In this document: one piece after another, positions 1,927-42,100 of the stretch
Layout of the letters: every line of letters begins with the position of its first letter
Position numbering within the stretch: the first letter of the stretch is position 1
From: Candidatus Omnitrophota bacterium
GTDB taxonomy: Bacteria > Hinthialibacterota > Hinthialibacteria > Hinthialibacterales > JAKPRU01
DNA: 64,000 bases
NCBI GenBank assembly: GCA_029570205.1
Contig: JAKQSI010000084.1
Coordinates: forward strand, 47,046 to 111,045
Reading direction: 5' to 3'
Position numbers and translations under genes: made by a program
The notes under the pieces: model-generated
Told to the model about the DNA's origin: nothing
The model's database searches: none
What the model saw: the letters and a program-made list of their open reading frames with translations, nothing else

Positions 1927-2619
1927 CTATGCCTTCGGTCCCAGACCGGCGATACATTGATCTTCCCGAATAACCTTTCGTGGCCCGCCATCCGAAGCGG
2001 TTGACCAATCATGCGGCTCGGCAATCCGTGCAAATTGTTCAAGAACACCCAAAGCACACGCCCGATCATAAATGAGCTGCCAGGCACAATCTCGCTCAGC
2101 AACAATCTCGCATTTGCCGTCCCGAGATCCGGCGCACGGTCCGTTTAATAAACGTTTCGCACAACGAGTAATGGGGCAAATCCCGACGAATTCGCCCAGC
2201 CTGCAATTACCACAAGCGGCACATTTCTCGGTCCAGACTCCCGGCGCCTCCAGGATACCGATGAACTGCGTGTTCACACCGGGATAGACTGTCGTATTTG
2301 GGAACCGATCGGCTAACGCCTGCACACCGGCTCCGCAACCCAGCGAGCAAATAGCGTCATACGGCTTCACGCGGGGAGCAAGAAGATCAATAAAGGCATT
2401 CTCGCATTGCCGCTCAATCGTACACTCATCTACAACTACATTGCCCCGACCGATAAGACGAAGCGCCATGCGAAGCGCGGAACCCAGGATCCCCGTCTCG
2501 CGTTCTCCACCGGCGAGGCATACCGTAACACAGGTCCCGCAGCCGACAAGCAGAACACGGCTATGGTCCTTTATCATATCCCGAATTTCAGGTACTTTTT
2601 TCCGGTCCGCAACAATCAT
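1927..2619 (-). CDS. metV: MetV: zinc/iron-sulfur subunit of methylene-tetrahydrofolate reductase
   Basis: A 230-residue cysteine-rich protein. It matches the family annotated as methylenetetrahydrofolate reductase C-terminal domain (MetV). It has an N-terminal CGTCVTVC (Cys27/30/34), a DECTIERQCE segment, SLGCGAGVQ, and a C-terminal CAACGNC...CPITRCAKRLLNGPC...GKCE block ending in DCAWQLIY. In acetogens MetV is the obligate partner of a short MetF and links it to iron-sulfur electron carriers. The start overlaps the stop of mvhD by 4 bp (ATGA), so translation is coupled. It is the last gene of the ten-gene operon, while its partner metF lies nine genes upstream. No truncation is seen. Confidence 0.93.
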   Translation of the reverse strand: MIVADRKKVPEIRDMIKDHSRVLLVGCGTCVTVCLAGGERETGILGSALRMALRLIGRGNVVVDECTIERQCENAFIDLLAPRVKPYDAICSLGCGAGVQALADRFPNTTVYPGVNTQFIGILEAPGVWTEKCAACGNCRLGEFVGICPITRCAKRLLNGPCAGSRDGKCEIVAERDCAWQLIYDRACALGVLEQFARIAEPHDWSTASDGGPRKVIREDQCIAGLGPKA

Positions 2620-3101
2620 TTCGTCTCTCCTTGAGGAATCGCCTCCTCTTGTATAATGCGTCCGCCCAATTCCCGCTCCTGGTGCAGCCTGTTCGAGTGC
2701 AACGGGCTGAGTCCCAGCCGGGAAATGCGCTCGGCCATCTCTGTCACAATTTGCGCGAAGCGTCCCCCTTCGCCGGAAGACAGGTTATACATTTCCAGCC
2801 GCTCCGGTTCGAGACCGATTTCCGCCAGTATTTTCTTGGCGCGCTCTACCCGTCGCCGCGCCCGCACATTGCCCTCAAGAAAATGGCATCCCCCCTCCAG
2901 GCAACCGGCAACAATTACCCCGTCCGCTCCATACTCAAATGCCAAAAGCAGATGATTGATCTCTACTCTGCCGGTGCACGGCAAGCGAAGTACCCGAACA
3001 CTCTCCGGGTATTGAATCCGCATGGAGCCTGCCAGGTCGGCCGCTGCATACGCGCAGTAATGGCAGCACAATGCGAGGATAATCGGCTCTCTGTCGGCCA
3101 T
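2616..3101 (-). CDS. mvhD: MvhD-type iron-sulfur electron transfer subunit (copy 1)
   Basis: A 161-residue protein of the hydrogenase delta-subunit (MvhD) family. Cysteines expected to hold a [2Fe-2S] cluster are visible: CCHYC (Cys12/13/16), PCTGRV (Cys42) and GCLEGGCHF (Cys67/72). In MvhD-HdrABC complexes this subunit passes electrons between HdrA and a dehydrogenase or hydrogenase module. No hydrogenase large subunit is encoded in the window, so electrons probably come from or go to NAD(P)H, ferredoxin or another flavin module. It sits 9 bp after hdrA and overlaps metV by 4 bp. A divergent second copy heads the operon. Confidence 0.93.
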   Translation of the reverse strand: MADREPIILALCCHYCAYAAADLAGSMRIQYPESVRVLRLPCTGRVEINHLLLAFEYGADGVIVAGCLEGGCHFLEGNVRARRRVERAKKILAEIGLEPERLEMYNLSSGEGGRFAQIVTEMAERISRLGLSPLHSNRLHQERELGGRIIQEEAIPQGETK

Positions 3102-3110
3102 TTCTCAATC

Positions 3111-6100
3111 CTATTCATTACGCCGGAGCGGTTCCGCCGCCCCGATTTCTTCAAGATAATCAATCGAGCTATCCCACTCACCGGAAGCAACGCGCAGCAG
3201 ACTCTCTACCGCACCAAGGATCTGCGAGTCAAGGTAGTGCCGAAGCTGGACCGCCCTCGCCGGACACTCCGCCGCACAACTTCCGCATCCCATACAGACT
3301 GCCGTCCGGATCTCCGCCTTGTTGAACGAGTTGATTTGCGGGGCCATATACGGGCACACATGCACGCATGTCATACAGGAAATACATTTGTCCGGGTCAA
3401 CCCAGGCGACCTGTCCGCTCACCGCCATTTCTTTATGAGACAAGATCGATGCCGCCCGCGCGGCTACAGCGTTGGCCTGTGAAATTGTTTCGCTGATGAA
3501 TTTTGGCGCCTGCGCTGTGCCGCAGAGGAACACCCCCTCGCTTGCAACATCTACCGGTCGCAACTTTATATGCGCTTCCAGGAAAAATCCGTCCGCATTC
3601 AACGGGACACGAAGCAGATTCGCTATCACCTGCCGATCCGCACGCGGTTCCATGGGGGCCGCGAGGACCAACAGATCGGGCCTCAATTCCAGATAACTGC
3701 CAAGCGACGGTTCCTGTACTCTCACACGAATATCACCGCTCGCCGACACATCCGGCGGGTTATCCGGCTCATAACGTATGAACAAAATACCTTTCTCACG
3801 CGCTTCCCGGTACGCCGCCTCCCGGAAACCGTATGTCCGCATATCCCGATACAAAACAACAATACGCAGATTCGCATAGCGCTCCCGCAGGGCCAAAGCA
3901 TTCTTCACCGCGGTGGTGCAACATACACGGCTGCAATACGGGCGTTCGGCATTCCGCTGCTCTACGCATTGAATCATTACCACAGTCCCGTCGGCGCGAA
4001 GAATTAGAGAATCATTTGCGAGATTCTCTGTGAGCTCCAGTTGCGTCACAATCCTATTGTGCCTGCCGTATCCGAAAGTGTGCGGTTTCATTTCAACAGC
4101 GCCTGTAGCGACCACAATTACGCCGTGCTCAATCTCCCCTTCAGCCCCCTCAATAGCCAATATGGAGCGAAACTCCCCTACATGTCCGCCGACATGTGAA
4201 ACACGAGTATTCAAATGGACCGTGATACGTGGATTGGTCGTTACACGTTCGATGGTCTGAAGAAGAAAAGTCTGTACATTTTCCCCATCCAGAGTCCGAT
4301 GCACACGCAGCGCCGTACCTCCAAGATGCTCACTCTTCTCAATTAAATGCACAGGGAAACCCTGCTCCGCAAGGGAGAGAGCGACGGTCATACCGGCGAT
4401 ACCTCCACCCACCACCAGAGCCGTATTATTCACAGGCACCCTCTCTTCCTGTAGCGGTAACAACTGGGTTGCGCGCCCCACCATCATTCGAACCAGGTCC
4501 ACCGCCTTCTCGGTAGCCTTTTCCGGACGCCCAGAATGAACCCAGGAACATTGGTCACGAATATTGGCCATCTCGAGAAGATACGGATTCAGTCCGGCAT
4601 CCCGCAAGGTATCCCGGAAAATCGGTTCGTGCGTTCGTGGTGTACAGGAAGCGACGACTACACGATTGATACCCCGCTCTCGGATAATCTGTTTCATCTT
4701 GTCCTGGGTGTCATCGGCACAGGTATAGATGTTATGATCCGCATAAACTACATGCGGTAATCGCCGCGCCTCCCCAACGACGGCTTCAATGTCTACAACA
4801 GATGCGATGTTGCTTCCGCAGTGACAAACAAATACACCGACTCTTGGCGGCTCGTCCGTAATGTCTCGCTCGGGCGGATAACTCTTCCTGCGCGTCTCGC
4901 TTCCTCGAGCGGGGGCAAGAAGCGACATCGCCCGCGCTGCCGCAGCGCTTGCCTGTACAACCGTATCTGGAATATCCTTCGGTTCCTGGAACACTCCGCC
5001 GACATAAATACCGTCTCGCGATGAATCCAACGGAGCCAATTCGCGAGTTCTCGCAAATCCCCATTCGTTTAAATCCACTCCCCACTCCTCGGCTTGTCTA
5101 CGAATCGATGAACTCGCCTCCAATCCCACCGACAACACGACCAGATCGAATTCCTCTTCCACCTGCTTCAGATCCGATCCGATATAGGTCAACAAGATGT
5201 TCTTTGTATCGGGCATTTCGTATGTTCGTGAGACAAGAGATCGAATATACCGAATTCCCCGATTTCTTGCCCGCTCATAGTAGCGGTCACACTCCTTACC
5301 GAACGCCCGCAAATCCAGAAAGAACACCGTTACCTCCAAGGCCGGCTCATGTTCCTTCGCAAGAATCGCCTCTTTTGTCGCCGCCATGCAGCACACCGAC
5401 GAGCAGTAATCGTTACCGCATGACGTATCCCGTGATCCGACACATTGAATGAATGCAAGACGTCTCGGCGTGTTTCCGTCTGAAGGTCGAAAGATTCTGC
5501 CCCCTGTCGGTCCGGAAGCGGACAACATGCGTTCAAACTGTACATTTGTTACAACATTCTTTGCAACTCCAAAGCCAAACTCCGCACGACGCGTCGCGTC
5601 AAACGGCTCAAATCCCGGTGTCAACAACACAGCGCCGGCCTGCAACTGGAACGTATGACTACTTTCGCTATGGTTAATCGCCCCCGCTTGACAGGCCTGG
5701 ACACACAACATGCACTCCGAACATCCGGCGCAGTTCAGACAGCGTCGTGCCTCCCGCTGAGCCTCGTCCGCGGTATATGTACATTCTACTTCCCGGAAAT
5801 TCCCAATACGATCTGCAGGGGCAAGTTCCTCCGTATTGACTCGCGGGACGCGGGATATCGTTCTCTTAAGCCGGGCCACATCTTTCTTGCTGAGCGGATT
5901 TGCCTCTCTTTCCGGCAGTCTCAAACCGTCACTTAACGGACGACCTGACAGGTAATTATCAATGGCGCGCGCGGCCCTAGTGCCTTGCGCGATGGCTTCA
6001 ATAACATTGGATGGCCCGGTCACGACATCTCCAGCCGCAAAAATTCCCTCCTTTGATGTAGCCATCGTGATGTTGTCCGTTACAACGGTTCCCAATTCAC

Positions 6101-7637
6101 TGATCTCGAGTTCAAATAATTCCGCCAGTCTTGTGTCGGCGTATTGGCTAATTGCCGGAATCAGCATATCTGCTTCAAAGAAAAACTCCGTGCCCTCGAT
6201 CGGCGCCGGCTCCCATCTCCCGCTTGCATCCCGCTCGCCCAGCTTCATGCGAATACACTGAGCGCCCGTCATTCGCCCATTCTCACTGACAACTCTAATC
6301 GCTGTCGCACCCGCCATGATTTCGATGTTCTCTGCAAGTGCGCCCGCAATTTCCTCCGGCGCGGCAATCATTTCATCGCGACATCGAATCAATATCGTAA
6401 CTGTTTCAGCCCCCAAGCGCCTGGCTACTCTTGCGGCATCGAACGCCGTATTCCCCCCACCGACAACCATTACACGTTTTCCTACCTCTGCCCCTTCATT
6501 CAATGAGAATCGTCTCAGAAACTCTACTCCATAAACGACTCCAGCGCACTGCTCACCGGGGATGCCTAATTTCCGGCTTTCATGGGCGCCGGTCGCGATA
6601 AACACCACATCGAATTCTTTCTCTATCTGCTCTCTCGGAATGTCCTTTCCGACAGAACTTCCCGGTAGGAATGTTACTCCCAGCTTACGAATCGCGGAAA
6701 TGTCCCTCTCCAGAATGTGGCGAGGCAGCCGATACTGTGGAATACCGACCGCCAACATACCGCCCAGAACAGGTAATGCCTCATAGACAATACAGTGATG
6801 CCCGGCGAGAGCTAATGAATGAGCAGCGGCCAGACCCGCCGGCCCGGACCCGATAATGGCTACGGATTTCCCACTCGGCTCAGTCCGGTTCGGCTTGTCC
6901 GATTCGGGAAAGAGATCCATTGCGAATCGTTTCAGTCCGCGTATATTGATCGGCTCATCAATCTCGCGCCGACTGCAGAGAGACTCACACGGATGAAAAC
7001 AGACGCGACCACAAATCGAAGGTAGAGGATTATCCCGACGAATCACATCCGCTGCCTCCTTAATTCTGCCCGCCGCGATCAGAGCCACATACGCCTGAAC
7101 ACTGGAGTCGATGGGGCACCCTGTGCTGCACATTCCGCGACCGTTCTTGCGGATCACGTACGCATTCGGAGCGGCCTGTGCATAGACCCGGTCAATTGCC
7201 TTTCGGGTCCCTATCCCCGCGTCAAAGGTACTCGGCAAGTTAACCGGACAGACAGCCGCGCAATCACCGCACGCCGTGCATTTGTGGATATCAACATAGC
7301 GTGGCCGCCGGCGAACCGTAACCCTAAAGTGCCCGGCTTCTCCTTCAATACGTAACACATCCGAAAGGGTAAATACATCGATATTGATGTCCCGCATACA
7401 TTCCACAAGTTTTGGAGAGATGATGCAGGTAGCGCAATCCCCAGTTGGAAAAGTCTTATCCAGACGGGACATTCCGCCACCCACTGCCGGGCTTTCCTCT
7501 ACCAGGTAAACACGGAATCCGGCAGCGGAGAGATCGAGAGAGGCCTGAATCCCGGCGATTCCCCCGCCGCAGACCAATACCGCACCGCACAAATCGTTCG
7601 ATCCTCCCGAGGCTGAAGGGCAACCGTTCGGATTCAT
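3111..7637 (-). CDS. hdrA: Giant HdrA-type flavoprotein with an inserted GltD-like domain
   Basis: 1508 residues, much longer than a single-module HdrA. Residues 18-135 start an HdrA module (GGGIAGIQ Rossmann motif; CATC; CTACGDCAAVCPV cluster motif). Residues about 140-565 form a complete glutamate-synthase small-subunit-like domain: a cysteine-rich N-part (Cys170, 174, 209, 213, 217, 221), an FAD motif GSGPAGLAAA near 263, an NAD(P) motif GGGNTAFDAA near 393, and AAGDVVTGP near 535. HdrA module 1 then resumes (CAGCSECMLCVQAC near 637-649; IQCVGSRD; CCMAA) to about 910. A second HdrA module spans about 930-1405 (VCHCGSN, GGGIAGMT, IQCVEQR). Two [4Fe-4S] motifs follow (CISCMTCVHVCPY, CMGCGSCAAECPA; 1418-1459). 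It is expected to be the flavin centre of electron bifurcation or confurcation. The start overlaps hdrB by 4 bp. Confidence 0.93.
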   Translation of the reverse strand: MNPNGCPSASGGSNDLCGAVLVCGGGIAGIQASLDLSAAGFRVYLVEESPAVGGGMSRLDKTFPTGDCATCIISPKLVECMRDINIDVFTLSDVLRIEGEAGHFRVTVRRRPRYVDIHKCTACGDCAAVCPVNLPSTFDAGIGTRKAIDRVYAQAAPNAYVIRKNGRGMCSTGCPIDSSVQAYVALIAAGRIKEAADVIRRDNPLPSICGRVCFHPCESLCSRREIDEPINIRGLKRFAMDLFPESDKPNRTEPSGKSVAIIGSGPAGLAAAHSLALAGHHCIVYEALPVLGGMLAVGIPQYRLPRHILERDISAIRKLGVTFLPGSSVGKDIPREQIEKEFDVVFIATGAHESRKLGIPGEQCAGVVYGVEFLRRFSLNEGAEVGKRVMVVGGGNTAFDAARVARRLGAETVTILIRCRDEMIAAPEEIAGALAENIEIMAGATAIRVVSENGRMTGAQCIRMKLGERDASGRWEPAPIEGTEFFFEADMLIPAISQYADTRLAELFELEISELGTVVTDNITMATSKEGIFAAGDVVTGPSNVIEAIAQGTRAARAIDNYLSGRPLSDGLRLPEREANPLSKKDVARLKRTISRVPRVNTEELAPADRIGNFREVECTYTADEAQREARRCLNCAGCSECMLCVQACQAGAINHSESSHTFQLQAGAVLLTPGFEPFDATRRAEFGFGVAKNVVTNVQFERMLSASGPTGGRIFRPSDGNTPRRLAFIQCVGSRDTSCGNDYCSSVCCMAATKEAILAKEHEPALEVTVFFLDLRAFGKECDRYYERARNRGIRYIRSLVSRTYEMPDTKNILLTYIGSDLKQVEEEFDLVVLSVGLEASSSIRRQAEEWGVDLNEWGFARTRELAPLDSSRDGIYVGGVFQEPKDIPDTVVQASAAAARAMSLLAPARGSETRRKSYPPERDITDEPPRVGVFVCHCGSNIASVVDIEAVVGEARRLPHVVYADHNIYTCADDTQDKMKQIIRERGINRVVVASCTPRTHEPIFRDTLRDAGLNPYLLEMANIRDQCSWVHSGRPEKATEKAVDLVRMMVGRATQLLPLQEERVPVNNTALVVGGGIAGMTVALSLAEQGFPVHLIEKSEHLGGTALRVHRTLDGENVQTFLLQTIERVTTNPRITVHLNTRVSHVGGHVGEFRSILAIEGAEGEIEHGVIVVATGAVEMKPHTFGYGRHNRIVTQLELTENLANDSLILRADGTVVMIQCVEQRNAERPYCSRVCCTTAVKNALALRERYANLRIVVLYRDMRTYGFREAAYREAREKGILFIRYEPDNPPDVSASGDIRVRVQEPSLGSYLELRPDLLVLAAPMEPRADRQVIANLLRVPLNADGFFLEAHIKLRPVDVASEGVFLCGTAQAPKFISETISQANAVAARAASILSHKEMAVSGQVAWVDPDKCISCMTCVHVCPYMAPQINSFNKAEIRTAVCMGCGSCAAECPARAVQLRHYLDSQILGAVESLLRVASGEWDSSIDYLEEIGAAEPLRRNE

Positions 7638-8530
7638 GATCGTTTGCCTCCTTCGGCCGGATTCAGAATCCCGTGTTTCGCTAGAAGCGGCATGGCATCA
7701 ACCGCCGGAGCCTCCAGCGCCAATTCATCCACCGACAGCCCCAACGCCAACCCCAGTAGTTGTGTAATGTAAAGAATCGGGATCTCCGGGACCTCACCGA
7801 ACGACTTCCCGATATCCGCCTGGCGAAGGTCAAGATTGGATTGGCAAAGCGGGCACGCAACGGCGATACATTCGGCTCCGGCGCGGTGCGCCATTGAAAG
7901 TAACCTGTACCCGAGTCGTCGGACGACATCCGGATCGGTAATAGAAAGACTTGCCCCGCAACATTCCGTCTTGTATGGCCAATCAATCGCCTCGGCTCCA
8001 ACGACGCGCAGCACTTCCTCCATACAGGTCGGGTATTCCGGATCGTCGAACGCTACTATTTCGGGAGGCCGCGACAGGAGACAGCCGTAATAACAGGCCA
8101 CTTTCAGACCGCCAAGCGGATGTGAGACATTCCTTCGAATTTCCTCTGTTCCCAGATCGTTAGCCAAGACATCCAGGATGTGCTGGACCTGTACAGAACC
8201 GTCATACGGCATGCCCGTGATTCTCTCGGCACGACTGCATTCCGCCGGATCATGCGTGATCTTATAGTTGGCTGTCCGAAGGCGGGAGTAACATGAGGCG
8301 CACGCCGCCATCACGGGCATCCCCATGTCCCGTGCCCTGAGCAAGCTGAACACGGGAAGCGCCACGGCTAACGACGCATTGCTGGCATGTGCCGGTGTGG
8401 AACCACAACAGATCCAGTCGGCTATCTCATGCAACTCCAAGCGGAGGGCGGCGCAAACGGAAAGCGTGGATTTCTTAAAATCCCAAGCCGTTGATTCCAG
8501 GCTGCAACCGGGGAAAAAAGCGTATTTCAC
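7634..8530 (-). CDS. hdrB: HdrB: heterodisulfide-reductase-type subunit with two CCG domains
   Basis: A 298-residue protein with both cysteine-rich CCG motifs of HdrB intact. Motif 1 uses Cys9, Cys41-Cys42 and Cys77/Cys80 (CASC). Motif 2 uses Cys146/150, Cys190-Cys191 and Cys226/229 (CPLC). In methanogen HdrB these bind two non-cubane [4Fe-4S] clusters that reduce a disulfide. In a MetFV context no heterodisulfide is needed and the clusters probably relay electrons. It starts with GTG overlapping the hdrC stop by 4 bp and overlaps hdrA by 4 bp. No membrane segments; cytoplasmic. An unrelated CCG-domain reductase is unlikely given the adjacent HdrA and HdrC. Confidence 0.95.
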   Translation of the reverse strand: MKYAFFPGCSLESTAWDFKKSTLSVCAALRLELHEIADWICCGSTPAHASNASLAVALPVFSLLRARDMGMPVMAACASCYSRLRTANYKITHDPAECSRAERITGMPYDGSVQVQHILDVLANDLGTEEIRRNVSHPLGGLKVACYYGCLLSRPPEIVAFDDPEYPTCMEEVLRVVGAEAIDWPYKTECCGASLSITDPDVVRRLGYRLLSMAHRAGAECIAVACPLCQSNLDLRQADIGKSFGEVPEIPILYITQLLGLALGLSVDELALEAPAVDAMPLLAKHGILNPAEGGKRS

Positions 8531-9087
8531 CGATTTCTTTCCTCCTCATCCGCTCTCTGAAATATCTCTGTAACCTGCGCGACATTAGCCGATCGTGGGG
8601 CTAACACAGAAAGTTTCCTTTTTGCCAATAATTTCCGCGCTTTGTCCAGGTCGGTAAGAAAGTCAAAGCACCGGAATTTGTATGCAGTAAGCATCCCCAG
8701 TTCGAAAATCCGCCCGTGCCTGCGCACGCTCGAAAGAAAAGAACGGTAAAACGTCTCGCCCCGCTTACCGGGAACTCGCAATTTACGTCGGGCCGCGAGG
8801 ATTCGAAGAGTATCCATCACGGTAGCAACGTCGATCCCCATCGGGCAGCGGCTTGTGCAGGCTTCACACGATGCGCAAAGCCAGATCGAGCGACATTTCA
8901 GTACCTCCTCCTCTCCTCCGAGATGGATTAGCCGCATAATTTGGCTTGAAAGAAGATCCATTTCCCGGCCGATGGGACAGCCGGCAGAGCATTTGTGGCA
9001 TTGGACACACGCGCTTACAGGTGTACCGCTGAGTCGCTCAACCTCGCGAAGGAACGCGATGTCTCTCCACTCCAACGTGTCGTTCAT
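8527..9087 (-). CDS. hdrC: HdrC: iron-sulfur electron transfer subunit
   Basis: A 186-residue ferredoxin-type protein with two [4Fe-4S] motifs, C27-C30-C33-C37 (CVQCHKCSAGC) and C71-C74-C77-C81 (CASCEACTSRC), followed by a helical C-terminal region of about 100 residues typical of HdrC. It carries electrons between HdrA and HdrB. It begins with ATG 3 bp after the stop of the amidotransferase gene and overlaps hdrB by 4 bp, so HdrC-HdrB-HdrA are made as one translational unit. Confidence 0.95.
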   Translation of the reverse strand: MNDTLEWRDIAFLREVERLSGTPVSACVQCHKCSAGCPIGREMDLLSSQIMRLIHLGGEEEVLKCRSIWLCASCEACTSRCPMGIDVATVMDTLRILAARRKLRVPGKRGETFYRSFLSSVRRHGRIFELGMLTAYKFRCFDFLTDLDKARKLLAKRKLSVLAPRSANVAQVTEIFQRADEEERNR

Positions 9088-9090
9088 CTC

Positions 9091-11721
9091 TTATTCGTCC
9101 ATTTCATCCAAATCCGGCTCCTTGACCGCATCCTTCACGGGGACTACTTTACGATAAACTTCTGACGGGCTCCGCAGAACCCCGTCTACTGTGAGCAAAT
9201 CGCGCTCCACCTTAACTCCGAATAGCCGCTCGTTCTCGCGAAGATACGGCAGGATTACTTTCCAGTCCGCGCCGTTTACAGTCTGATACACACCACCGTT
9301 CAGCTGCTCATTGACAAGTGTACGGTAAGGGTCTCGAATATAAATCGCGCCCCCGGAGGCTAACGAGAGCAGGTTACTGCCGGGGTAAGGTAAATCCAAT
9401 GGAACCACATTTCCGTCAACATGAAATCGAATTCCATTCACAATCGCAAAACCGCCACCCTGCAAAGGATTGCCCGCCATAAACGACTCGCCCAGAAAAT
9501 CGAGAGCGGTTCCGTTGATAACGACCCTGGGGCGCCCCACCGCATTGATCAGTGGACGACCCGCTGTATTCCCCATCACATAGATTTCCCCTCCTTTTGC
9601 GCCGTACAGGAACGTCTGGCCCACATCCCCATAGATGACTACCTTACCGCGCTTCGCGATCTGGCACAGCTGATCCTGAGCATTACAGTGAACATACACC
9701 TCCAGGCCGTCGATCCCGGAAGCCAGGTAGTCACCGGGATTATCATAACAATCGATGCGCAGCCCGTCCGTATTGGGGCCGAATCCGACTGCATGAAAAC
9801 GGGTTCCACGTGTATTGTAATGAATCAGGTGTCGCCAACCGAGTGTATAGGCTTCGACAGCCAGCCTTGCATCGCATTGTTGCCCCTCCGCGGAGAAACC
9901 GCGCGCATCAATCAACAGCACGGTCTCTCCCGCCAGAGGCCCGCGCAGTTGTCTTCGGGAGTCCCACGTAATTCTTCTACACGCCCCCTCGCGGGAATCA
10001 CCGAGAAACGGTTGTCGTCGAAATAGATGTTCGAGGCCATTGCGGAATACCATGAGAACGGAACTACGTTTCTTGTGCCCTGTCGGGTATCTCCGGTCCA
10101 TACAGGCAGTTAATATGTCGATTCCCAAAAGAGGTAACCTGACCGCCGTCTGTGCGACAATTTCATCAACTATCCAGCGAAGTCGGTTGTAATCCATGTC
10201 CACGACGGAATCCCGCATGTATTGAAATAACTCGTCCGATGAATTTGAGCGAACGGCTTGTTGAATCCTGGAAAGAGCCTCTTTCTTTTCTTCCGGCGGA
10301 TTGACCGCGATGGAGAAATCGCATGACACCTGCCCCGGAGGAACGGTGACCGCTTCGCCAAACTTGTTCGTTACATGAAGGTCGTAGCCGCCATTGTCTC
10401 CCCTGCCGTGTTCATTCGGAACCACATTCATGAGAAACGCGCCGCCGTCGGTATGGCTGCCGCCCCGCGCGTTCCAGTACAGATCGGCGACCGGACAAAA
10501 CCGAGAATCCTCCCCGGCGAGACTTGCCAGCGTTGCATCAATAGCCTGTTTCTCGGAACAGATCAAGCCGATCGACACCTCGCCTTCCTGGAGAGCAAAC
10601 ACTTGCGGGCGGAGCATCGCTGTATCGGTAATTCCCAGCAGTTGAAAACCACCCTTGTTATCAAGAACGCGCGCAATAATGAAGAACCACGGTCCGTCCG
10701 GAGAGCCGTGAATATGCGACGCCTGGATCTGACGATAGATGCGGCGTTTTTCGGCAGGCAGGCGATCAACATCCAGTTCTGCAGTCGGGGCTAATGCTTC
10801 AATAATATATTCGATGGGATACTTGTACACACGGTGAAGCAAATCGAATAAAAGAACGGAGACTTCCGTATCGGTCAGGAATTTCGGAAACAGGTGTCGC
10901 TGTGCAAGGTATTCGGTAACGGAATGGTAATTCGCAAAGTCCCCATTATGCACAAGCGCCTCGTTCATGCCGATGAATGGGTGTGCCCCGCCCGGATGCC
11001 AGACACGGCCCCGAGTCGGATAGCGCTGGTGCGCCAGCCAGACATGCGCCCGCAGTTCTCGCATCTGGTAATATTCCACCGCCGCTTCCGCATACCCGAC
11101 TATTTTGATAATAAACAGATTTCGGGCATGAGACAGCACAAAGGCACGTTTCTCTCCCAGGGAAGAATAAAAACGATCGTTCAGCCGATTGGAATTCTGG
11201 AAAACAAATTCATCCTCACTCTCGCGTTCAGTGAGGCCGATCAGATTCTTTTCCTCGACAAACCGCTCAAGAATAGCCGATTTGACGCGGACAAAATATC
11301 GAGCAACGTCCGGGGGCCTGATCTCGAGCAGAGCAATATCACGATAGTCATCCACAGTGGGGATGATCCCACCCTGCTGCACATCGAAATATGGTTCCAG
11401 GAAAGTTTTCTCTACTTCGCCACGCGCCGTGGAATCCAGCAAGGCAATCTGAAGAATGTAACTTTCCTCGAGTGTTCCTCGCGAAACTCTCAAGTCTTCG
11501 GGAACGAGACCACATGCGGCAATTCCACCTCCTTTACCGTTGCCTCGGTTCCGCATTTGGATTGATGGTTCATAGATGTGTTTGCCGCTTACGGGGATGG
11601 TGCACGCCAATCCGGTAACTCCGCATCCACCTTCGGCTTCGGGGCATTTTCGGAACCAATCAGAAAGTGGCGGACGAAGATCCGACCGAGCCTGAATATA
11701 TTTCCATACCCGTTTATCCAT
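9091..11721 (-). CDS. Glutamine amidotransferase (class II) fused to a glutamate synthase GXGXG domain
   Basis: 876 residues. The N-terminal half is a class II (Ntn) glutaminase. The nucleophile is predicted to be Cys33 in EGGCGVTG, preceded by a 32-residue stretch that would have to be removed, as in glutamate synthase large subunits. Other class II signatures are LAHQRYPT, LVHNGDFANY and TDTEVSVLL. The C-terminal part (about 600-820) is the glutamate synthase GXGXG beta-helix: VVIYGDVGQTFLYGAKGGEIYVMGNTAG-type repeats. The FMN/ammonia-using synthase domain that lies between these two in ordinary GltB is absent here and is encoded by the next upstream gene. ATG follows AAGGATAATCG, a good ribosome binding site. 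The expected role is to release ammonia from glutamine for the FMN domain partner, unless the domain has been repurposed. Confidence 0.88.
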   Translation of the reverse strand: MDKRVWKYIQARSDLRPPLSDWFRKCPEAEGGCGVTGLACTIPVSGKHIYEPSIQMRNRGNGKGGGIAACGLVPEDLRVSRGTLEESYILQIALLDSTARGEVEKTFLEPYFDVQQGGIIPTVDDYRDIALLEIRPPDVARYFVRVKSAILERFVEEKNLIGLTERESEDEFVFQNSNRLNDRFYSSLGEKRAFVLSHARNLFIIKIVGYAEAAVEYYQMRELRAHVWLAHQRYPTRGRVWHPGGAHPFIGMNEALVHNGDFANYHSVTEYLAQRHLFPKFLTDTEVSVLLFDLLHRVYKYPIEYIIEALAPTAELDVDRLPAEKRRIYRQIQASHIHGSPDGPWFFIIARVLDNKGGFQLLGITDTAMLRPQVFALQEGEVSIGLICSEKQAIDATLASLAGEDSRFCPVADLYWNARGGSHTDGGAFLMNVVPNEHGRGDNGGYDLHVTNKFGEAVTVPPGQVSCDFSIAVNPPEEKKEALSRIQQAVRSNSSDELFQYMRDSVVDMDYNRLRWIVDEIVAQTAVRLPLLGIDILTACMDRRYPTGHKKRSSVLMVFRNGLEHLFRRQPFLGDSREGACRRITWDSRRQLRGPLAGETVLLIDARGFSAEGQQCDARLAVEAYTLGWRHLIHYNTRGTRFHAVGFGPNTDGLRIDCYDNPGDYLASGIDGLEVYVHCNAQDQLCQIAKRGKVVIYGDVGQTFLYGAKGGEIYVMGNTAGRPLINAVGRPRVVINGTALDFLGESFMAGNPLQGGGFAIVNGIRFHVDGNVVPLDLPYPGSNLLSLASGGAIYIRDPYRTLVNEQLNGGVYQTVNGADWKVILPYLRENERLFGVKVERDLLTVDGVLRSPSEVYRKVVPVKDAVKEPDLDEMDE

Positions 11722-11743
11722 CGATTATCCTTCGCCGGAATCT

Positions 11744-13288
11744 TCATTCTTCATAGTCAAGATGTCCGAGCAAATCCGTTCGCCCGCGTAAGGCGGTTAC
11801 AGAATCGAGACCCAGGCGATACAGAATGTCGATCAGCATTTCGCGCCAGGCGTTATACATATTCACCAGTCGCTGTGTGCACCAATCGATTGTGACCATT
11901 TCCAGGAGTTCCGTGTCCGTGGTACAGATTCCGCGCGCGCATCCCCGTCCGCTTTCACAGCATCCGCAGCGAACACAGCCGAGGGCCACCAGCTCCGCCG
12001 TCCCAATCACCACACCGTCCGCGCCCAATGCAATGGCCTTGGCCATATCTGCCGGTGTACGAATTCCGCCGCTTGCGATCACATTTATCTCATCCCGAAC
12101 CCCCTCGCCCAGCAAAAACCGATGAACCTGGTTGATCGCATATTCAATCGGCATGGCTATATTCTTCTTCGCGATGTTCGGCGCGGCCCCGGTTCCGCCG
12201 TAGCTGCCGTCAATGTGGACGATATGCGCCCCGGCACAGTACACTCCAACGGCTACCATGTCGATATCCGCCGGAGTAGACACTTTTGCTGAAAGCAAAG
12301 CGCGCGGATTCACGTGCGAAATCCAGTCCAGATGTTTCTTGTGGTCCTCAATCGAGTACACGCTGTGAAACGGAAACGGCGAGAAAAGGGATGTTCCCAC
12401 AACCGCTTCCCGCATCCGCGCGACCTCCGGCGTGTTCTTATCGCCCAGCAGATGTCCGCCGAGGCCGGGTTTTGCCCCCTGCGCGTATTTCAATTCAACG
12501 ATCGGGGCACGTTGGATCGTGTCCTCGCGCACACCGAACAATCCTGTAGCCACTTGTGTAATGATATGGTCGGAGTACGGAATAAGTCTTTCATGATAGC
12601 CGCCTTCGCCCGTAGAGGTAAAGGTATTCCATGCTGTTGCCGAGCGAGACCTGCCCAGTAGAGCGCGGATATTCGTGGATCCGAACGACATCCCCCCGCC
12701 ATACCAGGGCACATCAATCTTTATTTTCGGCCGTGTATCCTTTCGTTTGTTGAGCAGTATCTCTGTCGAAATGTCCTCCCGACGGATATCCGCCGGTGGG
12801 TGGTCAGGGTAACGGAAGTACAGGCGGTCGAATCCCCCGCCTGAATTGCCGATCTCACTTTCCAGGTGGGACGGCGGAATCCGGCCGGTTTCCGCCATGG
12901 CCCACGTAGCGGCAAGCAGATCGCCGGTCCAACGACAGTCCCCAAGGGTATCAAAAGCCGGATTCCTGAGAAGCGAAAGCGCGCCCTGCGGGCAAGCCTC
13001 AATACAGTAATGTTCCGTGTTCGAACAATCGAATCCGATACATCGGTAGTCTTGCGGACGAACAATCAATCCGTCCCCATCCGGGCTGGAATGGACACCG
13101 TACGGACAAATCTCTACACATCTGCGACACCGGATACAGGTTGAGGCACGATGGATACTGAATTTGCCGATTTCATTTCGGTAACGGGACGGAGCCGGGC
13201 GCACTGCCCGGGAGACCTCCGAATAGTCCGGCGTGGGTCGCTTCTTCTCCGTCGGTGTTGAAAGAACGGCGGCTTGTGCAGCATTCAT
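11744..13288 (-). CDS. Glutamate synthase FMN domain with N-terminal ferredoxin (GltB2 type)
   Basis: 514 residues. Two [4Fe-4S] motifs come first (Cys51/54/57/61 in CIRCRRCVEIC, and Cys83/88/95/99). The FMN-binding glutamate synthase barrel follows, with recognisable active-site blocks: VPWYGGGMSFGS, GAKPGLGGHLLG, VKVST-like AKVSTPAD, HIDGSYGGTGAAP, IASGGIRTPADMAKA and ADGVVIGTAELVALGC. The cluster-binding CVRCGCCESGRGC comes near the end. All conserved blocks I know for the synthase domain are present, so it is probably active in converting 2-oxoglutarate plus ammonia to glutamate or the reverse. This resembles stand-alone archaeal-type GltB2. It lies 8 bp after the degenerate paralogue and 22 bp before the amidotransferase gene. 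Confidence 0.9.
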   Translation of the reverse strand: MNAAQAAVLSTPTEKKRPTPDYSEVSRAVRPAPSRYRNEIGKFSIHRASTCIRCRRCVEICPYGVHSSPDGDGLIVRPQDYRCIGFDCSNTEHYCIEACPQGALSLLRNPAFDTLGDCRWTGDLLAATWAMAETGRIPPSHLESEIGNSGGGFDRLYFRYPDHPPADIRREDISTEILLNKRKDTRPKIKIDVPWYGGGMSFGSTNIRALLGRSRSATAWNTFTSTGEGGYHERLIPYSDHIITQVATGLFGVREDTIQRAPIVELKYAQGAKPGLGGHLLGDKNTPEVARMREAVVGTSLFSPFPFHSVYSIEDHKKHLDWISHVNPRALLSAKVSTPADIDMVAVGVYCAGAHIVHIDGSYGGTGAAPNIAKKNIAMPIEYAINQVHRFLLGEGVRDEINVIASGGIRTPADMAKAIALGADGVVIGTAELVALGCVRCGCCESGRGCARGICTTDTELLEMVTIDWCTQRLVNMYNAWREMLIDILYRLGLDSVTALRGRTDLLGHLDYEE

Positions 13289-13296
13289 CGTAGCGA

Positions 13297-14688
13297 TTAC
13301 GCTCCAATCCGGTCTTTCCGTTTGCCGAAAAGTCTGCCGAAGTTGTCTCGCTCTAAATCCTCGAAAAACATACTTCGACCCGTTTCCCCGCGCAACCGGC
13401 GCACTTCCCGGATACCCATTGCGCCGAGCATTTCAAGCATCTGGTTGTACCAGGCTCCCATCAGGTTGACGATGCGTCGAACCGCATATTCCGGTTCGAT
13501 CCGTGCGAGATCGACCGGACAGATTTCCCCGCGTTCGCATTCGCCGCACAACCGGCATTCCAAGGCTACCATGAGAGGAATATCAACGGCTACAAGATTC
13601 GCGCCGCAGATGATCGCCTTCGCCGCATGTTCGGCGAGGGCGATACCGCCGGATGCAATTAACGTAACTTCGTCGCGAATTCCTTCCCGGACAAGAGCGC
13701 CGTGAATCTCGCGCATTACATCGCGAAGGTGTCGCGGATCCGAAGATTCATGTTCCATCCCATGCGGGTCGAAATCGAATTGAATCACCTCTACACCTTC
13801 CCGGGTCAATTCAACGGCTCGTTTGTGGGATTTGGGAGTCGCCGGCGCACGAACAGCGACTATTTGATCGGGATTCTTTTCTTTTAGAGATTTCTGTACA
13901 GAAACAACGTTCGGCGAATCGGCTAACATCACCATCGCAGCGGAATTGTCGGCGGACGTCGGCGCATCTTCCGCGTTTCGATAAAGCGGGATGATATGCC
14001 CGGATTCCGCGGGGATTTCGTCGCCGGGAACAATTGCCATCAAGCCGATTTCCGAGGCCGCCCGGATGACCGAATAGCAGATCGCGCCCTTCTGCCAGGG
14101 TTCCGGGACAACATCGAAAATAACCGGGAAAGGGATTTCGATTAACGTCGGAGGCGAAGCCGTCGGTTGCCCGTCCTGAAAGGAAAGATAAGGCAGGGTT
14201 CGTCCGATATCTACACTGGTGCTGATGTACTCACGCCCGTGAATACCGTCACGAGTGGGGCGGACAATTTCGGACATATCCGTCCACATCGAATCGAATC
14301 CGGGACCGCTGAACGGCCCTCCGTATCCGGAGCCTGAAACAGGAATCTTACCGGTTTCCGCCTGAAACCACGTGGTGAGAATAATATCCGGCGTATAGTA
14401 GGAGTCGCCGAGCTGCATGTATTCGGGATTAACCACGCGCGTCAAAATCCCTTTGGTACAGTTTTGGACGCAGGTTAAACAACCTTTACATTGATATATG
14501 TAGTCCAGGTAACCCGGTTCATCGTGAAGGATATCGGCCTCTTTACGGTAGAAACCGTAAACGCAGCTTTTCTTGACACAATTGTGACAACCGGCGCAAT
14601 CCTCCCTCCAATCCACGATGCCGAGTTTTCCGACAGGACGAAATCGTGGGGGAGCCGGTTCGGTATGGATGTGGTATTTAGCCGGCAC
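13297..14688 (-). CDS. Degenerate glutamate-synthase-like iron-sulfur flavoprotein
   Basis: 463 residues, starting with GTG 2 bp after the metF stop. The architecture mirrors the neighbouring FMN protein: two N-terminal [4Fe-4S] motifs (Cys31/34/37/42 and Cys67/70/73/77), then a synthase-like barrel ending in IASGGIALAEHAAKAI, VALECRLCGECERGEIC and a similar C-terminal helix region (MGAWYNQMLEMLGAMGIREVRRL against MYNAWREMLIDILYRLGLDSVTALRG). It lacks the KPGxGG and GGTGAxP blocks, so it has probably lost the catalytic substrate/FMN site and may serve as a structural or electron-relay paralogue. This loss is seen directly; the role is inferred. Confidence 0.8.
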   Translation of the reverse strand: MPAKYHIHTEPAPPRFRPVGKLGIVDWREDCAGCHNCVKKSCVYGFYRKEADILHDEPGYLDYIYQCKGCLTCVQNCTKGILTRVVNPEYMQLGDSYYTPDIILTTWFQAETGKIPVSGSGYGGPFSGPGFDSMWTDMSEIVRPTRDGIHGREYISTSVDIGRTLPYLSFQDGQPTASPPTLIEIPFPVIFDVVPEPWQKGAICYSVIRAASEIGLMAIVPGDEIPAESGHIIPLYRNAEDAPTSADNSAAMVMLADSPNVVSVQKSLKEKNPDQIVAVRAPATPKSHKRAVELTREGVEVIQFDFDPHGMEHESSDPRHLRDVMREIHGALVREGIRDEVTLIASGGIALAEHAAKAIICGANLVAVDIPLMVALECRLCGECERGEICPVDLARIEPEYAVRRIVNLMGAWYNQMLEMLGAMGIREVRRLRGETGRSMFFEDLERDNFGRLFGKRKDRIGA

Positions 14689-14690
14689 GT

Positions 14691-15608
14691 TCAGTCCACC
14701 CCAAGCCCCGATGTTGCCGTGACTTCCAGAGCGGCGTCGTCATCCCCTGCGCCATCGATTTCAAAACCGCGTACGCCCTCCAGCCCGGAGAGTTCGCGGA
14801 GGGTCTCCAGAGCGATCGCAATTCCCTCAGTCCGCTGCGCATCCGGACCTGATTTCGACGCAAGACGTTGAAGAACAGACTCAGGAACTACCGGATTGGG
14901 GCGTTCCGCCACGAAAAAGTTCGCCTGTTCGACATTTCCCAACACGCGAATCCCCGCAAGAACGGCAACTGTTTCATGTATACGCACACGGACAATTTCT
15001 TTCCACCATGCTTTGAATCGTTCCAAATCAAAGACGGGCTGAGTAATCAGAAAATGGACTCCGGCATTAACCTTCTTAACCAGGCGCATGATCTGCAATT
15101 CCATCGGATCGGCATACGGAGCCGCCACACCACCCAGGCAGAACGGACCGGCGTTGTCGAATCTCTCCTCTCCGACAACGGTTCCATTCTCAGCCAATCC
15201 CGCAATCGCCCGGATCAGTTGGACCGAGTCGAGATCGAAAACATTCCTGGCCGCGCGGCATCGCCCCAGGGTCTGATGGGTTCCGCCGGTGCAGAAAACG
15301 TTGCGAATACCCAGCGCATCGGCTCCCAAGCAATCGGAAATCAACGCAATCCGGTTCCGGTCCCGTGTCACAAGGTGGAGAATCGGCTCGACTCCCTGAG
15401 CCGCAACCAATGACGCCGCCGCAAAAGCAGACATGCAGACTCCGTGCCGATTGTCGCTGATCCCAAGCGCATGAACTTTTCCTGCGTACCGTTTCACTGT
15501 GGCGACCACAACGGAGGAATCGCTGCCGGTTGGAGGGCAGATTTCCGCAAGAAGAATCCGTTTTCCCGATTCGATTCGTTCGTGTAAGGCCGTTTTCTCT
15601 TTTGCCAT
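14691..15608 (-). CDS. metF: Methylene-tetrahydrofolate reductase, MetF
   Basis: 305 residues from the ATG at 15608; an upstream in-frame TTG at 15617 would add three. The family barrel is recognisable from LLAEICPPTGSDSS near the N-terminus, a VHALGISDNRHG segment, EPILHLVTRDRNR, ADALGIRNVFCTGG, GGVAAPYADP and VHFLITQPVFDLERFKAWW. It reduces 5,10-methylene-THF to 5-methyl-THF using FAD. It is the short form, without a regulatory domain, that works with MetV in acetogens. Its presence together with metV, hdrABC and mvhD points to a multi-subunit reductase coupled to a bifurcating flavoprotein rather than to a simple NADH-dependent MetF. Confidence 0.93.
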   Translation of the reverse strand: MAKEKTALHERIESGKRILLAEICPPTGSDSSVVVATVKRYAGKVHALGISDNRHGVCMSAFAAASLVAAQGVEPILHLVTRDRNRIALISDCLGADALGIRNVFCTGGTHQTLGRCRAARNVFDLDSVQLIRAIAGLAENGTVVGEERFDNAGPFCLGGVAAPYADPMELQIMRLVKKVNAGVHFLITQPVFDLERFKAWWKEIVRVRIHETVAVLAGIRVLGNVEQANFFVAERPNPVVPESVLQRLASKSGPDAQRTEGIAIALETLRELSGLEGVRGFEIDGAGDDDAALEVTATSGLGVD

Positions 15609-15638
15609 GGTTTTCAACCGGGGGAACCGGTCGGGAGA

Positions 15639-16103
15639 TCATGCCCGACATTGATAATCCTGCCGTATTGCCTCCTGAAGTGAATTGACACCGAACGGCA
15701 CTGGGCCAAGCCCGCAAATCCGTTCCACCACCGCATGAATTCGCTGCTCAAACGATTCGGGAGATTCCCGAGGGGAAGATTCCAGTATCTGCGCCCGTTC
15801 CGGTTCCAATCCGATCTCGCCCAGCAGGCGCTGTACGGTCTGAACGCGAATCCGGGCACGGTAGTTCCCCTGGGCGAGGTGACATTCGCCCGACGGGCAG
15901 GTCACTACGCAAAAACCATATCCCCCGCCTTCCAGCACATGAAACAAATACTGGATGTCCGTCTTACCACTGCACGGGATTTGCCTGACCTGAACCAGAG
16001 CGCCGTTCAGTCGCCATTGCCGCATCATACGTGTTCCAGGCGGAACGCAGTTGTGGCAGACATACACAATGACATCAGGGCGCATCGGTTCAGGCATTCC
16101 CAT
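15639..16103 (-). CDS. MvhD-type iron-sulfur subunit (copy 2)
   Basis: A 154-residue paralogue of the MvhD protein at the other end of the operon. The conserved blocks are VCHNC (Cys16/19), IPCSGKTD (Cys44) and CPSGECHLAQGNYRAR (Cys69/74). The N-terminal motif is CHNC rather than CCHYC, and PPGTRMMRQW replaces the usual AYxxAD region, so the copy is divergent. The C-terminus is shared in style (RVQTVQRLLGEIGLEPER against RVERAKKILAEIGLEPER). It is the first gene after the predicted promoter. Having two MvhD types suggests two docking partners, for example MetFV on one side and the glutamate synthase proteins on the other. That is inference. Confidence 0.88.
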   Translation of the reverse strand: MGMPEPMRPDVIVYVCHNCVPPGTRMMRQWRLNGALVQVRQIPCSGKTDIQYLFHVLEGGGYGFCVVTCPSGECHLAQGNYRARIRVQTVQRLLGEIGLEPERAQILESSPRESPESFEQRIHAVVERICGLGPVPFGVNSLQEAIRQDYQCRA

Positions 16104-39114: not shown

Positions 39115-42100
39115 CTCGATATTTCAATAGTTTCCGGGGCGGAGGATCCTTGAACCAGCGGGTCGTACATACACTCGGCATGGACAGCCGGAACCTGATA
39201 ATTACCCGGAGTAATCGCCCGGACGGCGTAACAATAGTGCCGGCTTCCGCCGGGCAGATCGCGGAATGCAAGGATAATCCGGTCGTCCCGGATATCCGTA
39301 TACGTCGGGGCGATAATGTTCGAAATCACATCCAGCTCGGGTAAGGCATCCGCATCCAGCCGGGGATTCATAATCTCGAAGCCCGCCGGGAGGAGATCCA
39401 CAACAACCACATTCTTGAGATTCTGATCGCAGGAGACATCCAAGCAAATCACGTAATCATCCCCATGCTTAAATCGCCTGGAGTCCTGTAGAACAGCCCG
39501 GTTCGTGAAGTATTGCCGCCCCATGGAAATCCCATTCGACACGGCCTCTCGAATGGGATCTCGGGGAATGCCCTCCATTACGACATTTGCGTAGATATTC
39601 GTATCGCCCGTGTTCTTTACGATGAACTTCGCCCCGCCTCCTTTGTGCTGTTGTTCGCAAATGTCCATTCCCTGTATTCGTGTTGTCAGCGGCTCAACGC
39701 CTGTGGAGTACGAGATTTCGGCCATGGCAGCCGCGGTGTTCACGCCGATCTTCTTCATGTACATTCCCAGGGCTGTTACCGCGAAAGCAGTCTCATGTGT
39801 TATGTAATGCTCCCGGTTTCGCAGATACATAGCAATCCTCTCGGCCCGCTCCGCTAATGTAACCGGATCGGTGTTCATCTGCAAAAGAGAAAGCAACTCC
39901 ACCGCATCATTCCGAATTTCGGAGTTCAGGGTTCCGTCCTGCTCTGCGAACAGATACGGCTCGGACGGCGACTGCGCCATATACATGCGAACCCTGTCGT
40001 ACTCTTTCGTATTGAGCGCCAGGGCCGCCGCAAGCAGATATCGGGCCGCGCGCGGCAACGGAATCGCATCGAATCCGGCAATCCGGCTGATGGCGCCCTC
40101 GTCGCGTGCCAGCGATAGCGTATACAGAGCATAGGCTCGCTGGTACAGGCCGGACTCCGAAGAGTCAGCCGCATTCCCTGCCAGCGTATTGACGTAATTC
40201 TTTAACAGTTTATACGCATTGCCGGGAATCTGTACACTCGAGTCGTCTTTCACAAGCGTCAATAAATGGAACGCGTAAATCGAGCCATAGGGATACGGAT
40301 CGTACCAACTGGGCCAGCTCGCAAGCCCGCCCGACGGAAGTTGCATGGCAAGGAGTTGATCGATCCCTGCTTGCAGATAGGCCGGCGTGTACTCAAGGCG
40401 CCCCGGCCGTTGCTGAATCAGATCCGCACGCTCTTTCAGAACGTACAAAGCCATCAGCCGTGAGGTCACTTGTTCGACACAGCCATAAGGATAGTCCAGG
40501 AGATAGGACAAGGCTTTCTCCAGCTGAATGGCCGGGCTTGCCCCGATACGGACGTTTATCTGGAACCGTTCATCTTCCAGGAAACGGTCATTCACAATCT
40601 CCATCGACTCGGAAGGTTTAACAACGCGAATATCGGCGGCTAGTTGATAGGCAGCAGGCATTTTAACCGGTAATGGAGCGGACTGAGTAACGGTTTCAAC
40701 TAAACCGCCGGCTTCATCATAGACATCCATAGTCCAGTCCAGTTGCCCCTGACCCGACAGGTCTCCCGCGAAAATCGGCGCGGAACAATCCTTCTCTGAA
40801 TTGGCGGGGACCGCAAGTTGCAGTGAACCGGAACTCGCTTTCAACGCACCGGAGGCAATCCACCGGAGCGTTGTCCGGCAAGGTGAGGCCGTCGTATTGA
40901 AAATCACAGCCCGACACTCACAGGAGTCGCCGGGCAGTAAAAAGCGCGGCATACTTGTTCGAAGCATAACAGGGCGGCGGACCGGCAACTCCTGGGCAAG
41001 ACTACCGGCGGCGCGCTCATTCCACCCGACTGCAACGAGGCGCAGCACGCCGTCGAACTCCGGAACGGCTAATCGAACAGTCGCTTTTCCGGATTCATCC
41101 GTGCGCACTTCACCCGACCAGAGAGCGACCGGCTTGATCCAACTCTCCATGGGTGGAGCGACGCGCTTCTCCAAATCCGCCTCCATGTCTCCGCCCGGGG
41201 TAGTTTGTTCATATTGATAGACAACACGGTCATAATAGTGGGCACGGCGAAGATCGGGTTTTCTCGGCCGGCTGAGCCAGGCGTACGGGTCCGGATTCTT
41301 GTAGTCGGTGATCAAATGAATTCCTTCATCCACCGCGGCAAGAGTCAGTTCCGACTGGACGGGATTTCCACTCGAGTCCGTTACCTGGATCGCAATCTCT
41401 GTTTCACGATTCGGGCGAATCTCCGATGGAAGGCCCGGCATGGACAGTGTCAGATCCCGTGTCGCATTGTGGACCGCAATGCTCGCCACGGCGAAACTCA
41501 TGAATGGGTATAGTTGCGCCTTGTCCTTCTCAATCGCGTGGACCACGGTCACTTCGGCCCACAGATTCGGAAACGCCTCTTCGGTGATCGGGATGCGAAT
41601 CTCCCCCGACTGGTTCTCTATGCGAATTGGGATCATCGACCGGATGGTCTGATGCTGCAAGACAACAATTCCGCAGCCGTCAAACGGCGATTCTACTCGG
41701 AGAACCGCGTCCTCGCCGATTTCGTATTTCTCCTTGTCTAATGACAATTTGAGAAGCGTCGGCTGGGCCATATCGGACAACTGACAGCGTCCGTCATAGC
41801 AGTAAAAAGTTCGTGTACTGTTCAGCGCGGTCGCATCGGATTGAACACATACGCGAAAATATCCGTAGCCTTTCGGGTCGAATTCCGTGTGACCGATTCC
41901 ATCCTGGAGAGGAACCGCGCGGGTTTCAATTTCATAAAAATTGTCGGCCCAACTGGGTTCGTCATGAGTATAGTACCTGCGAAGGTAATAGCTCCATTTT
42001 TGCTGCTCCAGAGTCACGGTTACACTGGGCAGGACAGCGGGCGCTTCATCGGGGTGGATGGCGATCACATTGACATCCAGGCCGCTCTTGCCGACCCGCC

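Follow-up and report, generated by a model that had tools for sequence, protein, structure and literature searches.

Among the closest described systems is the Hdr-type methylene-tetrahydrofolate (methylene-THF) reductase, for which a MetFV-HdrABC-MvhD composition has been proposed in Moorella thermoacetica, where HdrA already carries a GltD insertion and oxidises NADH (PMC9430772). Pull-downs in Sporomusa ovata reveal contacts of MetVF with Hdr and of MvhD with Hdr; HdrCBA-MvhD of this organism did not co-purify with MetVF (PMC9430772). Related GltD-type insertions in HdrA are found in HdrL (PMC2702500) and in the type III HdrA proteins, HdrA9-11 (PMC12054007, PMC9012536). In this study we have analysed a 64,000-nucleotide stretch of DNA, here called the window, from a Candidatus Omnitrophota bacterium (assembly GCA_029570205.1, contig JAKQSI010000084.1, positions 47,046 to 111,045), in which a module of this kind shares one ten-gene operon with three glutamate-synthase-derived genes. 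We propose that the product of this operon is a glutamate synthase (GOGAT) complex connected to an HdrABC-MvhD-MetV module of the Moorella type, possibly electron-bifurcating, and not a methylene-THF reductase, a proposal to which we give an even chance of being right.

The ten open reading frames lie on the minus strand at positions 1927-16103 of the window (Table 1), in the order mvhD1, metF, gltB2x, gltFMN, gatgx, hdrC, hdrB, hdrA::gltD, mvhD2 and metV, with all gaps at or below 22 nt and 4-nt overlaps at three junctions. Every gene name is backed by Pfam and NCBIfam (FlpD/MvhD twice, MTHFR, Glu_synthase twice, GATase_6 with GXGXG, HdrC, HdrB, HdrA and MetV, the last as DUF5981), and the whole Moorella-type set, metF, metV, hdrA, hdrB, hdrC and mvhD with a tandem HdrA that contains GltD, is present in one operon. 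The host is a 4.39-Mb metagenome-assembled genome (MAG) of 93% completeness, in which the operon lies far from the contig ends. Its genus-mates have been deposited as Candidatus Omnitrophota, and the nearest relatives of the operon are mostly from Hydrogenedentes.

Relatives of the operon were found by a scan with the 876-aa GATGX protein over genomes that represent one species each, which gave at least 572 relatives, and the best 80 were fetched with their flanks; these loci were picked by similarity to the window, so that frequencies among them are biased, and single MAG labels may be wrong. A second and less biased sample of 386 genomes gave 15 hits, 12 of them outside the genus of the window. 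GltB2x and GltFMN are encoded upstream of GATGX in all 49 loci whose flank is long enough, and in 48 of these MvhD is as well; HdrABC, MetF, MetV and MvhD are all present in 18 of the 31 loci that have both flanks complete. The full ten-gene order recurs in Hydrogenedentes (L033, L035), Deltaproteobacteria (L037, L038), Geobacteraceae (L042, L047), Planctomycetes (L041, L051, L073, L089, L105), Sumerlaeota (L050), Anaeromyxobacter of the Myxococcota (L090) and others, as well as in one genome of the second sample (G203) and, with metV cut, in Armatimonadetes (L036). The window itself belongs to a 29-row clade of the tree, clade A, with SH-aLRT support of 100. The operon was found in both other genomes of the genus that were searched, interrupted there by contig ends, but in none of 11 other genomes of the same phylum examined, and this distribution points to acquisition by lateral transfer. 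As many anaerobic lineages that are not related to each other have these ten genes in one and the same order, the linkage is not accidental, and this order together with the two other genomes of the genus rules out chance or an annotation artefact. The earlier note on this DNA, made from the sequence alone, had described one tight minus-strand operon joining metF, metV, hdrABC and two mvhD genes with three glutamate-synthase-derived genes. Both the reading frames and the family matches agree with that description, and the conserved co-localisation that it put forward as a check is borne out by the recurrence of this order across many phyla. The opposite outcome, in which relatives would carry the two gene sets in separate, unlinked operons, was looked at and is not what the relatives display, although a form without Hdr genes is also widespread.

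This Hdr-less sister form, MvhD-MetV-MetF-GltB2x-GltFMN-GATGX, occurs in many Desulfobacterota and others (G037, G053, G055, G230, G368, G316, G344), and in one of these genomes, G053, GltB2x and GltFMN are fused into a single 998-aa protein, which indicates that both subunits belong together. In one Deltaproteobacteria MAG (L037) both operon types stand in tandem, followed by carAB, and its genome has nine MTHFR matches. That the Hdr-less form is so common, and that HdrCBA-MvhD came without MetVF in the Sporomusa ovata purification (PMC9430772), would fit a linkage for co-regulation only, with the Hdr-Met and Glt proteins forming no joint complex. However, the exact ten-gene order over many phyla, the GltB2x::GltFMN fusion and the extra MvhD peculiar to the operon's Glt end all speak for a joint complex, and we consider mere co-regulation improbable.

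MetF stands out among the subunits. E. coli Asp120 has been called invariant and catalytically essential in methylenetetrahydrofolate reductases (PMC9900621), and the E. coli Asp120Asn enzyme keeps 0.3% of kcat (PMC11094777). In the MetF of the window this position is Thr, both in a residue table and in a HMMER alignment to 6fnu. None of the 20 slot-2 MetFs of clade A has Asp in this column (T, S, N, A or K instead); in the divergent ten-gene clade the column holds Y, A or D, and in the Hdr-less group always Asp, a difference between Hdr-linked and Hdr-less MetFs with a Fisher p of 4e-7 among related sequences that are not independent. MetF is also the least conserved subunit in the clade and MetV the most conserved (median identity 55% versus 76%). 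Relative to GATGX, the identity of MetF declines from a ratio of 1.01 in the Hdr-less group to 0.80 and 0.67 in the ten-gene clades, and that of MetV goes from 0.91 to 1.09 and 1.01; 13 Cys of MetV are conserved in nearly all of 53 sequences. At least one further MTHFR is encoded in each of the 23 ten-gene hosts searched. Acetyl-CoA synthase (ACS, PF03598) is present in only 7 of 24 ten-gene hosts versus 20 of 22 hosts of the group with an Asp-bearing MetF (Fisher p 2e-5), a group that is mostly Hdr-less but takes in four loci of the Syntrophorhabdaceae type that have a distant Hdr set. The separate sample gives 0 of 4 ten-gene hosts versus 6 of 7 hosts of the MetVF-trio form. PF03598 was found neither in the genome of the window nor in the other two genomes of the genus, which rules out a Wood-Ljungdahl role in this host as far as a MAG of 93% completeness allows. 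Taken together, the Asp120 column, the identity ratios, the additional MTHFRs and the ACS distribution suggest that the ten-gene complex stands largely outside the Wood-Ljungdahl context, MetF having lost constraint and MetV having gained it, and that the MetF of the operon is probably not a working methylene-THF reductase. The same data bear against reading the operon as an Hdr-type methylene-THF reductase, which would bifurcate electrons from NAD(P)H to methylene-THF and a low-potential acceptor with the glutamate-synthase parts as an accessory conduit or second acceptor. The composition proposed for Moorella (PMC9430772), a fully conserved MetV and the retention of Glu28 and Gln183 as E and Q in MetF would agree with such an enzyme, but we think it unlikely to be the right explanation. 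Three Syntrophorhabdaceae-type loci (L066, L072, L094) have two MetFs, both Asp-bearing, two MetVs, the glutamate-synthase trio and distant HdrCB and HdrA::GltD.

The trio of glutamate-synthase subunits looks catalytically intact as judged from alignments and models. The glutaminase and GXGXG parts form one fused 876-aa gene, GATGX, in which C33, R233, N259, G260, D261 and D284 are invariant among 87 sequences and the Cys33 nucleophile is preceded by a 32-residue propeptide-like leader. A GATGX profile has no match among PDB sequences, but the AlphaFold2 model (pLDDT 81.2) aligns to the alpha subunit of glutamate synthase (GltS) with Z 26.6 and 3.5 A over 584 residues, in an alignment that begins where residue 33 falls on Cys1 of mature GltS and continues through residue 869, GXGXG included. 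The glutaminase site thus appears to have all the elements of the class II type, an N-terminal Cys, an Arg, an Asn-Gly-Asp and an Asp, with predicted processing of the leader. By its sequence, the 514-aa GltFMN is the catalytic FMN domain of glutamate synthase. Of the positions that do not vary between the GltB of E. coli, that of the host itself and one of archaeal type, it keeps 68 and has changed 44. The kept positions include (in E. coli numbering) Q934, K937, R957, E978 and the cluster cysteines C1102, C1108 and C1113, and the first four of these correspond to Synechocystis Q969, K972, R992 and E1013, which we take to line the synthase site. The changed ones include R914, P945, H971 and D973, replaced by L, L, F and S, some of them beside kept motifs. 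GltB2x has kept the barrel fold and all its Fe-S cysteines, which are invariant in relatives, and its AlphaFold2 model (pLDDT 78.6) matches GltS 782-1160 with Z 21.1. However, its canonical AQGAKPG segment has been lost, so that GltB2x is probably a non-catalytic paralogue with an electron-relay or structural role.

The trio also occurs in other gene contexts. The recurrent non-core neighbours over the fetched loci are CarA (11), Amt (8), GlnA (8), CarB (7) and PII (5). In G179 the order is GlnA-Amt-PII-MvhD-trio, with no Met genes within the stretch read, and in G282 the trio is accompanied by a separate GltD gene. These neighbours and varied partners assign the trio to nitrogen assimilation and reveal a core whose electron-input modules can be exchanged. 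An ANME-1 archaeon (GoMg2, L067, 1339-16743) has an Amt-PII-GlnA-GlcD-like-trio-CarB-CarA cluster, whose GlcD-like Fe-S flavoprotein may feed electrons to the trio. Another explanation is that the trio uses a different acceptor, such as another keto acid, an imine or a pterin, and that MetF binds a substrate other than methylene-THF. It could account for the family-specific substitutions around the synthase site, for a MetF pterin site that is changed while Glu28 and Gln183 are kept, and for the redundancy with a canonical GltB. However, glutamine synthetase, Amt, PII and CarAB recur beside close relatives of the trio and the core synthase residues are kept, and among the explanations weighed here we regard this one as the least probable.

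The Hdr module appears to be complete. HdrA is a tandem protein whose segments map to residues 146-290, 292-500, 2-167 and 467-651 of 5odc HdrA, and the GltD module is inserted between residues 290 and 292, splitting the first ferredoxin domain. The cofactor sites and subunits expected of HdrABC bifurcation complexes are present, namely the FAD site and Fe-S clusters of HdrA, the two non-cubane clusters of HdrB, and HdrC. The eight Cys of HdrC are invariant in 35 of 35 sequences and the CCG Cys of HdrB in 33 of 33, with only isolated exceptions the Fe-S ligands do not vary in HdrB, HdrC and MetV, and the four Cys of mvhD1 are conserved in 22 of 22 members of its clade. Twelve sister operons (for example L042:14056-20164) have genes for HdrA-N::NuoE, NuoF and NuoG-like::HdrA-C instead, with the Nuo-type module at the GltD site. 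Because two unrelated NAD(P)H modules, GltD and NuoEFG, occupy one position, we argue that NAD(P)H enters at this site. The coenzyme motif of the GltD module reads GGGNTA...IRCRDE in the window, with YRR in clade relatives and CLE in the divergent clade, which weakly suggests NADP(H) in the window and NAD(H) in the divergent clade. The tandem HdrA at L035:12482-15739 has neither a GltD nor a Nuo insert, the ten-gene operon there being otherwise complete; a NAD(P)H module may act in trans or may be lacking altogether.

These observations require a revision of other parts of the earlier note. It had counted the GltD domain within HdrA as a fourth part of glutamate synthase, a candidate that we rejected: the domain belongs, as NAD(P)H module, to the HdrA architecture already known from Moorella, it gives way to a NuoEFG-like module in the 12 sister operons and it is missing in L035. 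It had also proposed one supercomplex with flavin-based electron transfer that couples methylene-THF reduction to glutamine, 2-oxoglutarate and glutamate chemistry, or else uses the glutamate-synthase parts as an NAD(P)H-linked electron conduit. A multi-gene unit conserved far outside this genome is consistent with a single complex and with electron transfer by flavins. The coupling to methylene-THF reduction finds no support, given Thr for the catalytic Asp of MetF, the lack of ACS in most hosts and another MTHFR in every host searched.

In the proposed mechanism, NAD(P)H would enter at the GltD domain within HdrA, and electrons would pass from the HdrA flavin through the clusters of HdrBC, MvhD and MetV to the ferredoxin domains in the two subunits GltB2x and GltFMN, and from there to FMN. 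The FMN would then reduce 2-iminoglutarate, which would form when 2-oxoglutarate reacts with ammonia set free by the glutaminase. MetF, without folate catalysis, would be retained as a structural or electron-relay subunit. The potentials are about -320 mV for NAD(P)H, about -130 mV for the conversion of 2-oxoglutarate and ammonia to glutamate, and about -420 mV or lower for ferredoxin. As glutamate formation with NAD(P)H is strongly exergonic, the HdrA flavin may well bifurcate, with the high-potential branch leading to glutamate and the low-potential branch to ferredoxin, and by these textbook values glutamate synthesis could pull one electron of the bifurcated pair and so pay for the reduction of ferredoxin. 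We infer from the gene set and the comparisons above that the ten proteins form one complex, that electrons flow in this direction, and that ferredoxin is the second acceptor of a bifurcation. The more specific idea of a bifurcating glutamate synthase that reduces ferredoxin via HdrA, with a sister complex of intact MetFV tying glutamate synthesis to methyl-THF/methylene-THF in Wood-Ljungdahl hosts, is tentative and, in our view, somewhat doubtful. A glutamate synthase that uses NAD(P)H without bifurcation, the Hdr module being a mere electron conduit, would also be compatible with GltD and NuoEFG modules that supply NAD(P)H electrons and with the intact residues of the trio. However, GltBD-type subunits would suffice for a plain NAD(P)H-dependent GOGAT, a canonical GltB is already encoded by the host, and the retention of tandem HdrA, HdrBC and all Fe-S ligands suggests energy coupling; a plain conduit is rather unlikely.

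Several points weigh against our proposal of an HdrABC-linked glutamate synthase. The genome of the window also encodes a canonical full-length GltB, so that a second GOGAT is not required for growth, and the family-specific changes of GltFMN near the synthase site may bear on its acceptor specificity. Genes of nitrogen metabolism are rare beside the ten-gene form proper, with CarA/CarB in L037 and Amt in L053. MetFs without Asp also occur in five ten-gene hosts that have ACS. In three clade A loci (L043, L044, L055) there is no degenerate slot-2 MetF and a normal Asp-bearing MetF adjoins the operon, which, with the kept Glu28 and Gln183, suggests that some folate link may persist. The operon is known here from genes, sequence comparison and predicted single-chain structures.

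Table 1. Genes of the operon, with positions in the window
Gene (product)	Position	Strand	Matches and remarks
mvhD1 (FlpD/MvhD, 154 aa)	15639..16103	-	Pfam FlpD 5.2e-23; predicted [2Fe-2S] electron-transfer subunit, operon-specific paralogue
metF-like (308 aa, TTG start)	14691..15617	-	Pfam MTHFR 1.4e-20
gltB2x (463 aa, GTG start)	13297..14688	-	Pfam Fer4_9 and Glu_synthase; two N-terminal 4Fe-4S motifs and FMN-type barrel
gltFMN (514 aa)	11744..13288	-	Pfam Glu_synthase 5.9e-87; two 4Fe-4S motifs and FMN/3Fe-4S synthase domain
gatgx (876 aa)	9091..11721	-	Class II glutaminase domain (GATase_6) fused to GXGXG beta-helix; PF01493 3.4e-08
hdrC (186 aa)	8527..9087	-	TIGR03290 2.8e-17; two [4Fe-4S] motifs
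hdrB (298 aa, GTG start)	7634..8530	-	PF02754 in two stretches; TIGR03288 2.1e-52; both CCG (non-cubane cluster) motifs intact
hdrA::gltD (1508 aa)	3111..7637	-	NF040770 8.4e-291; PRK12771 2.4e-160; tandem HdrA, GltD NAD(P)H/FAD module at about residues 165-637
mvhD2 (161 aa)	2616..3101	-	FlpD 5.7e-49; canonical MvhD partner of HdrA
metV (230 aa), Zn/Fe-S protein	1927..2619	-	PF12225 1.9e-33

Elsewhere in the window, positions 1-1476 hold, on the plus strand and convergent with the operon, a pyridoxal phosphate-dependent aminotransferase, identified by reading the sequence, and a cyclophilin-like protein (PF04126). At 36787-44864 a gene for a penicillin-binding protein with a BiPBP_C domain adjoins a 1917-aa bacterial alpha-2-macroglobulin gene, and at 46794-49244 there is an MrfA/HRQ1-type DEAD helicase with an MZB domain.

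If our proposal is true, this would be, as far as we found, the first glutamate synthase tied to HdrABC, joining central nitrogen assimilation with flavin-based electron bifurcation, and if bifurcation is also true, low-potential electrons would be recovered from a redox drop that ordinary GOGAT loses. The Hdr-less sister operon offers a concrete, testable way in which one-carbon oxidation may be tied to glutamate synthesis among sulfate reducers and related organisms. For annotation, the metF-hdr clusters of many MAGs should not be taken as evidence of a Wood-Ljungdahl methylene-THF reductase, and the Asp120 column separates the two kinds.

A Glt-Met-Hdr complex or conserved operon was not found to be described in the open-access full-text literature, subscription papers and preprints lying outside this scope. 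The parts are known singly, and what is new, as far as we found, is their union as a conserved operon for an HdrABC-linked complex with a glutamate-synthase core. Like the Hdr-type methylene-THF reductase of Moorella thermoacetica and Sporomusa ovata, the operon has HdrC, HdrB, a tandem HdrA (with the GltD insert in Moorella), MvhD, MetV and MetF; unlike it, the operon adds a further MvhD and three glutamate-synthase proteins, its MetF has no catalytic Asp and most of its hosts have no acetyl-CoA synthase. With GltBD of E. coli and Azospirillum and with the split archaeal-type enzyme it shares a class II glutaminase whose N-terminal Cys follows a leader, an FMN/3Fe-4S domain, a GXGXG domain and a GltD-type module. 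In contrast to both, however, its glutaminase is fused to GXGXG, its FMN domain has two [4Fe-4S] clusters of its own, the extra GltB2x lacks AQGAKPG, and the GltD-type module occurs only inside HdrA. A GltD/NfnB-like insertion in HdrA is also known from HdrL of Desulfobacterium autotrophicum and from the type III HdrA of ANME-1 and Bathyarchaeota, but those proteins have not been described with glutamate-synthase core genes, and the HdrA of the window is a tandem. Finally, the putative F420-dependent glutamate synthases of methanogens and anaerobic methanotrophic archaea (FGltS, FrhB10 clusters) likewise consist of a split enzyme with an exchanged electron-input module, which in FGltS is FrhB with F420, whereas in the operon described here it is MvhD-MetV-HdrABC.

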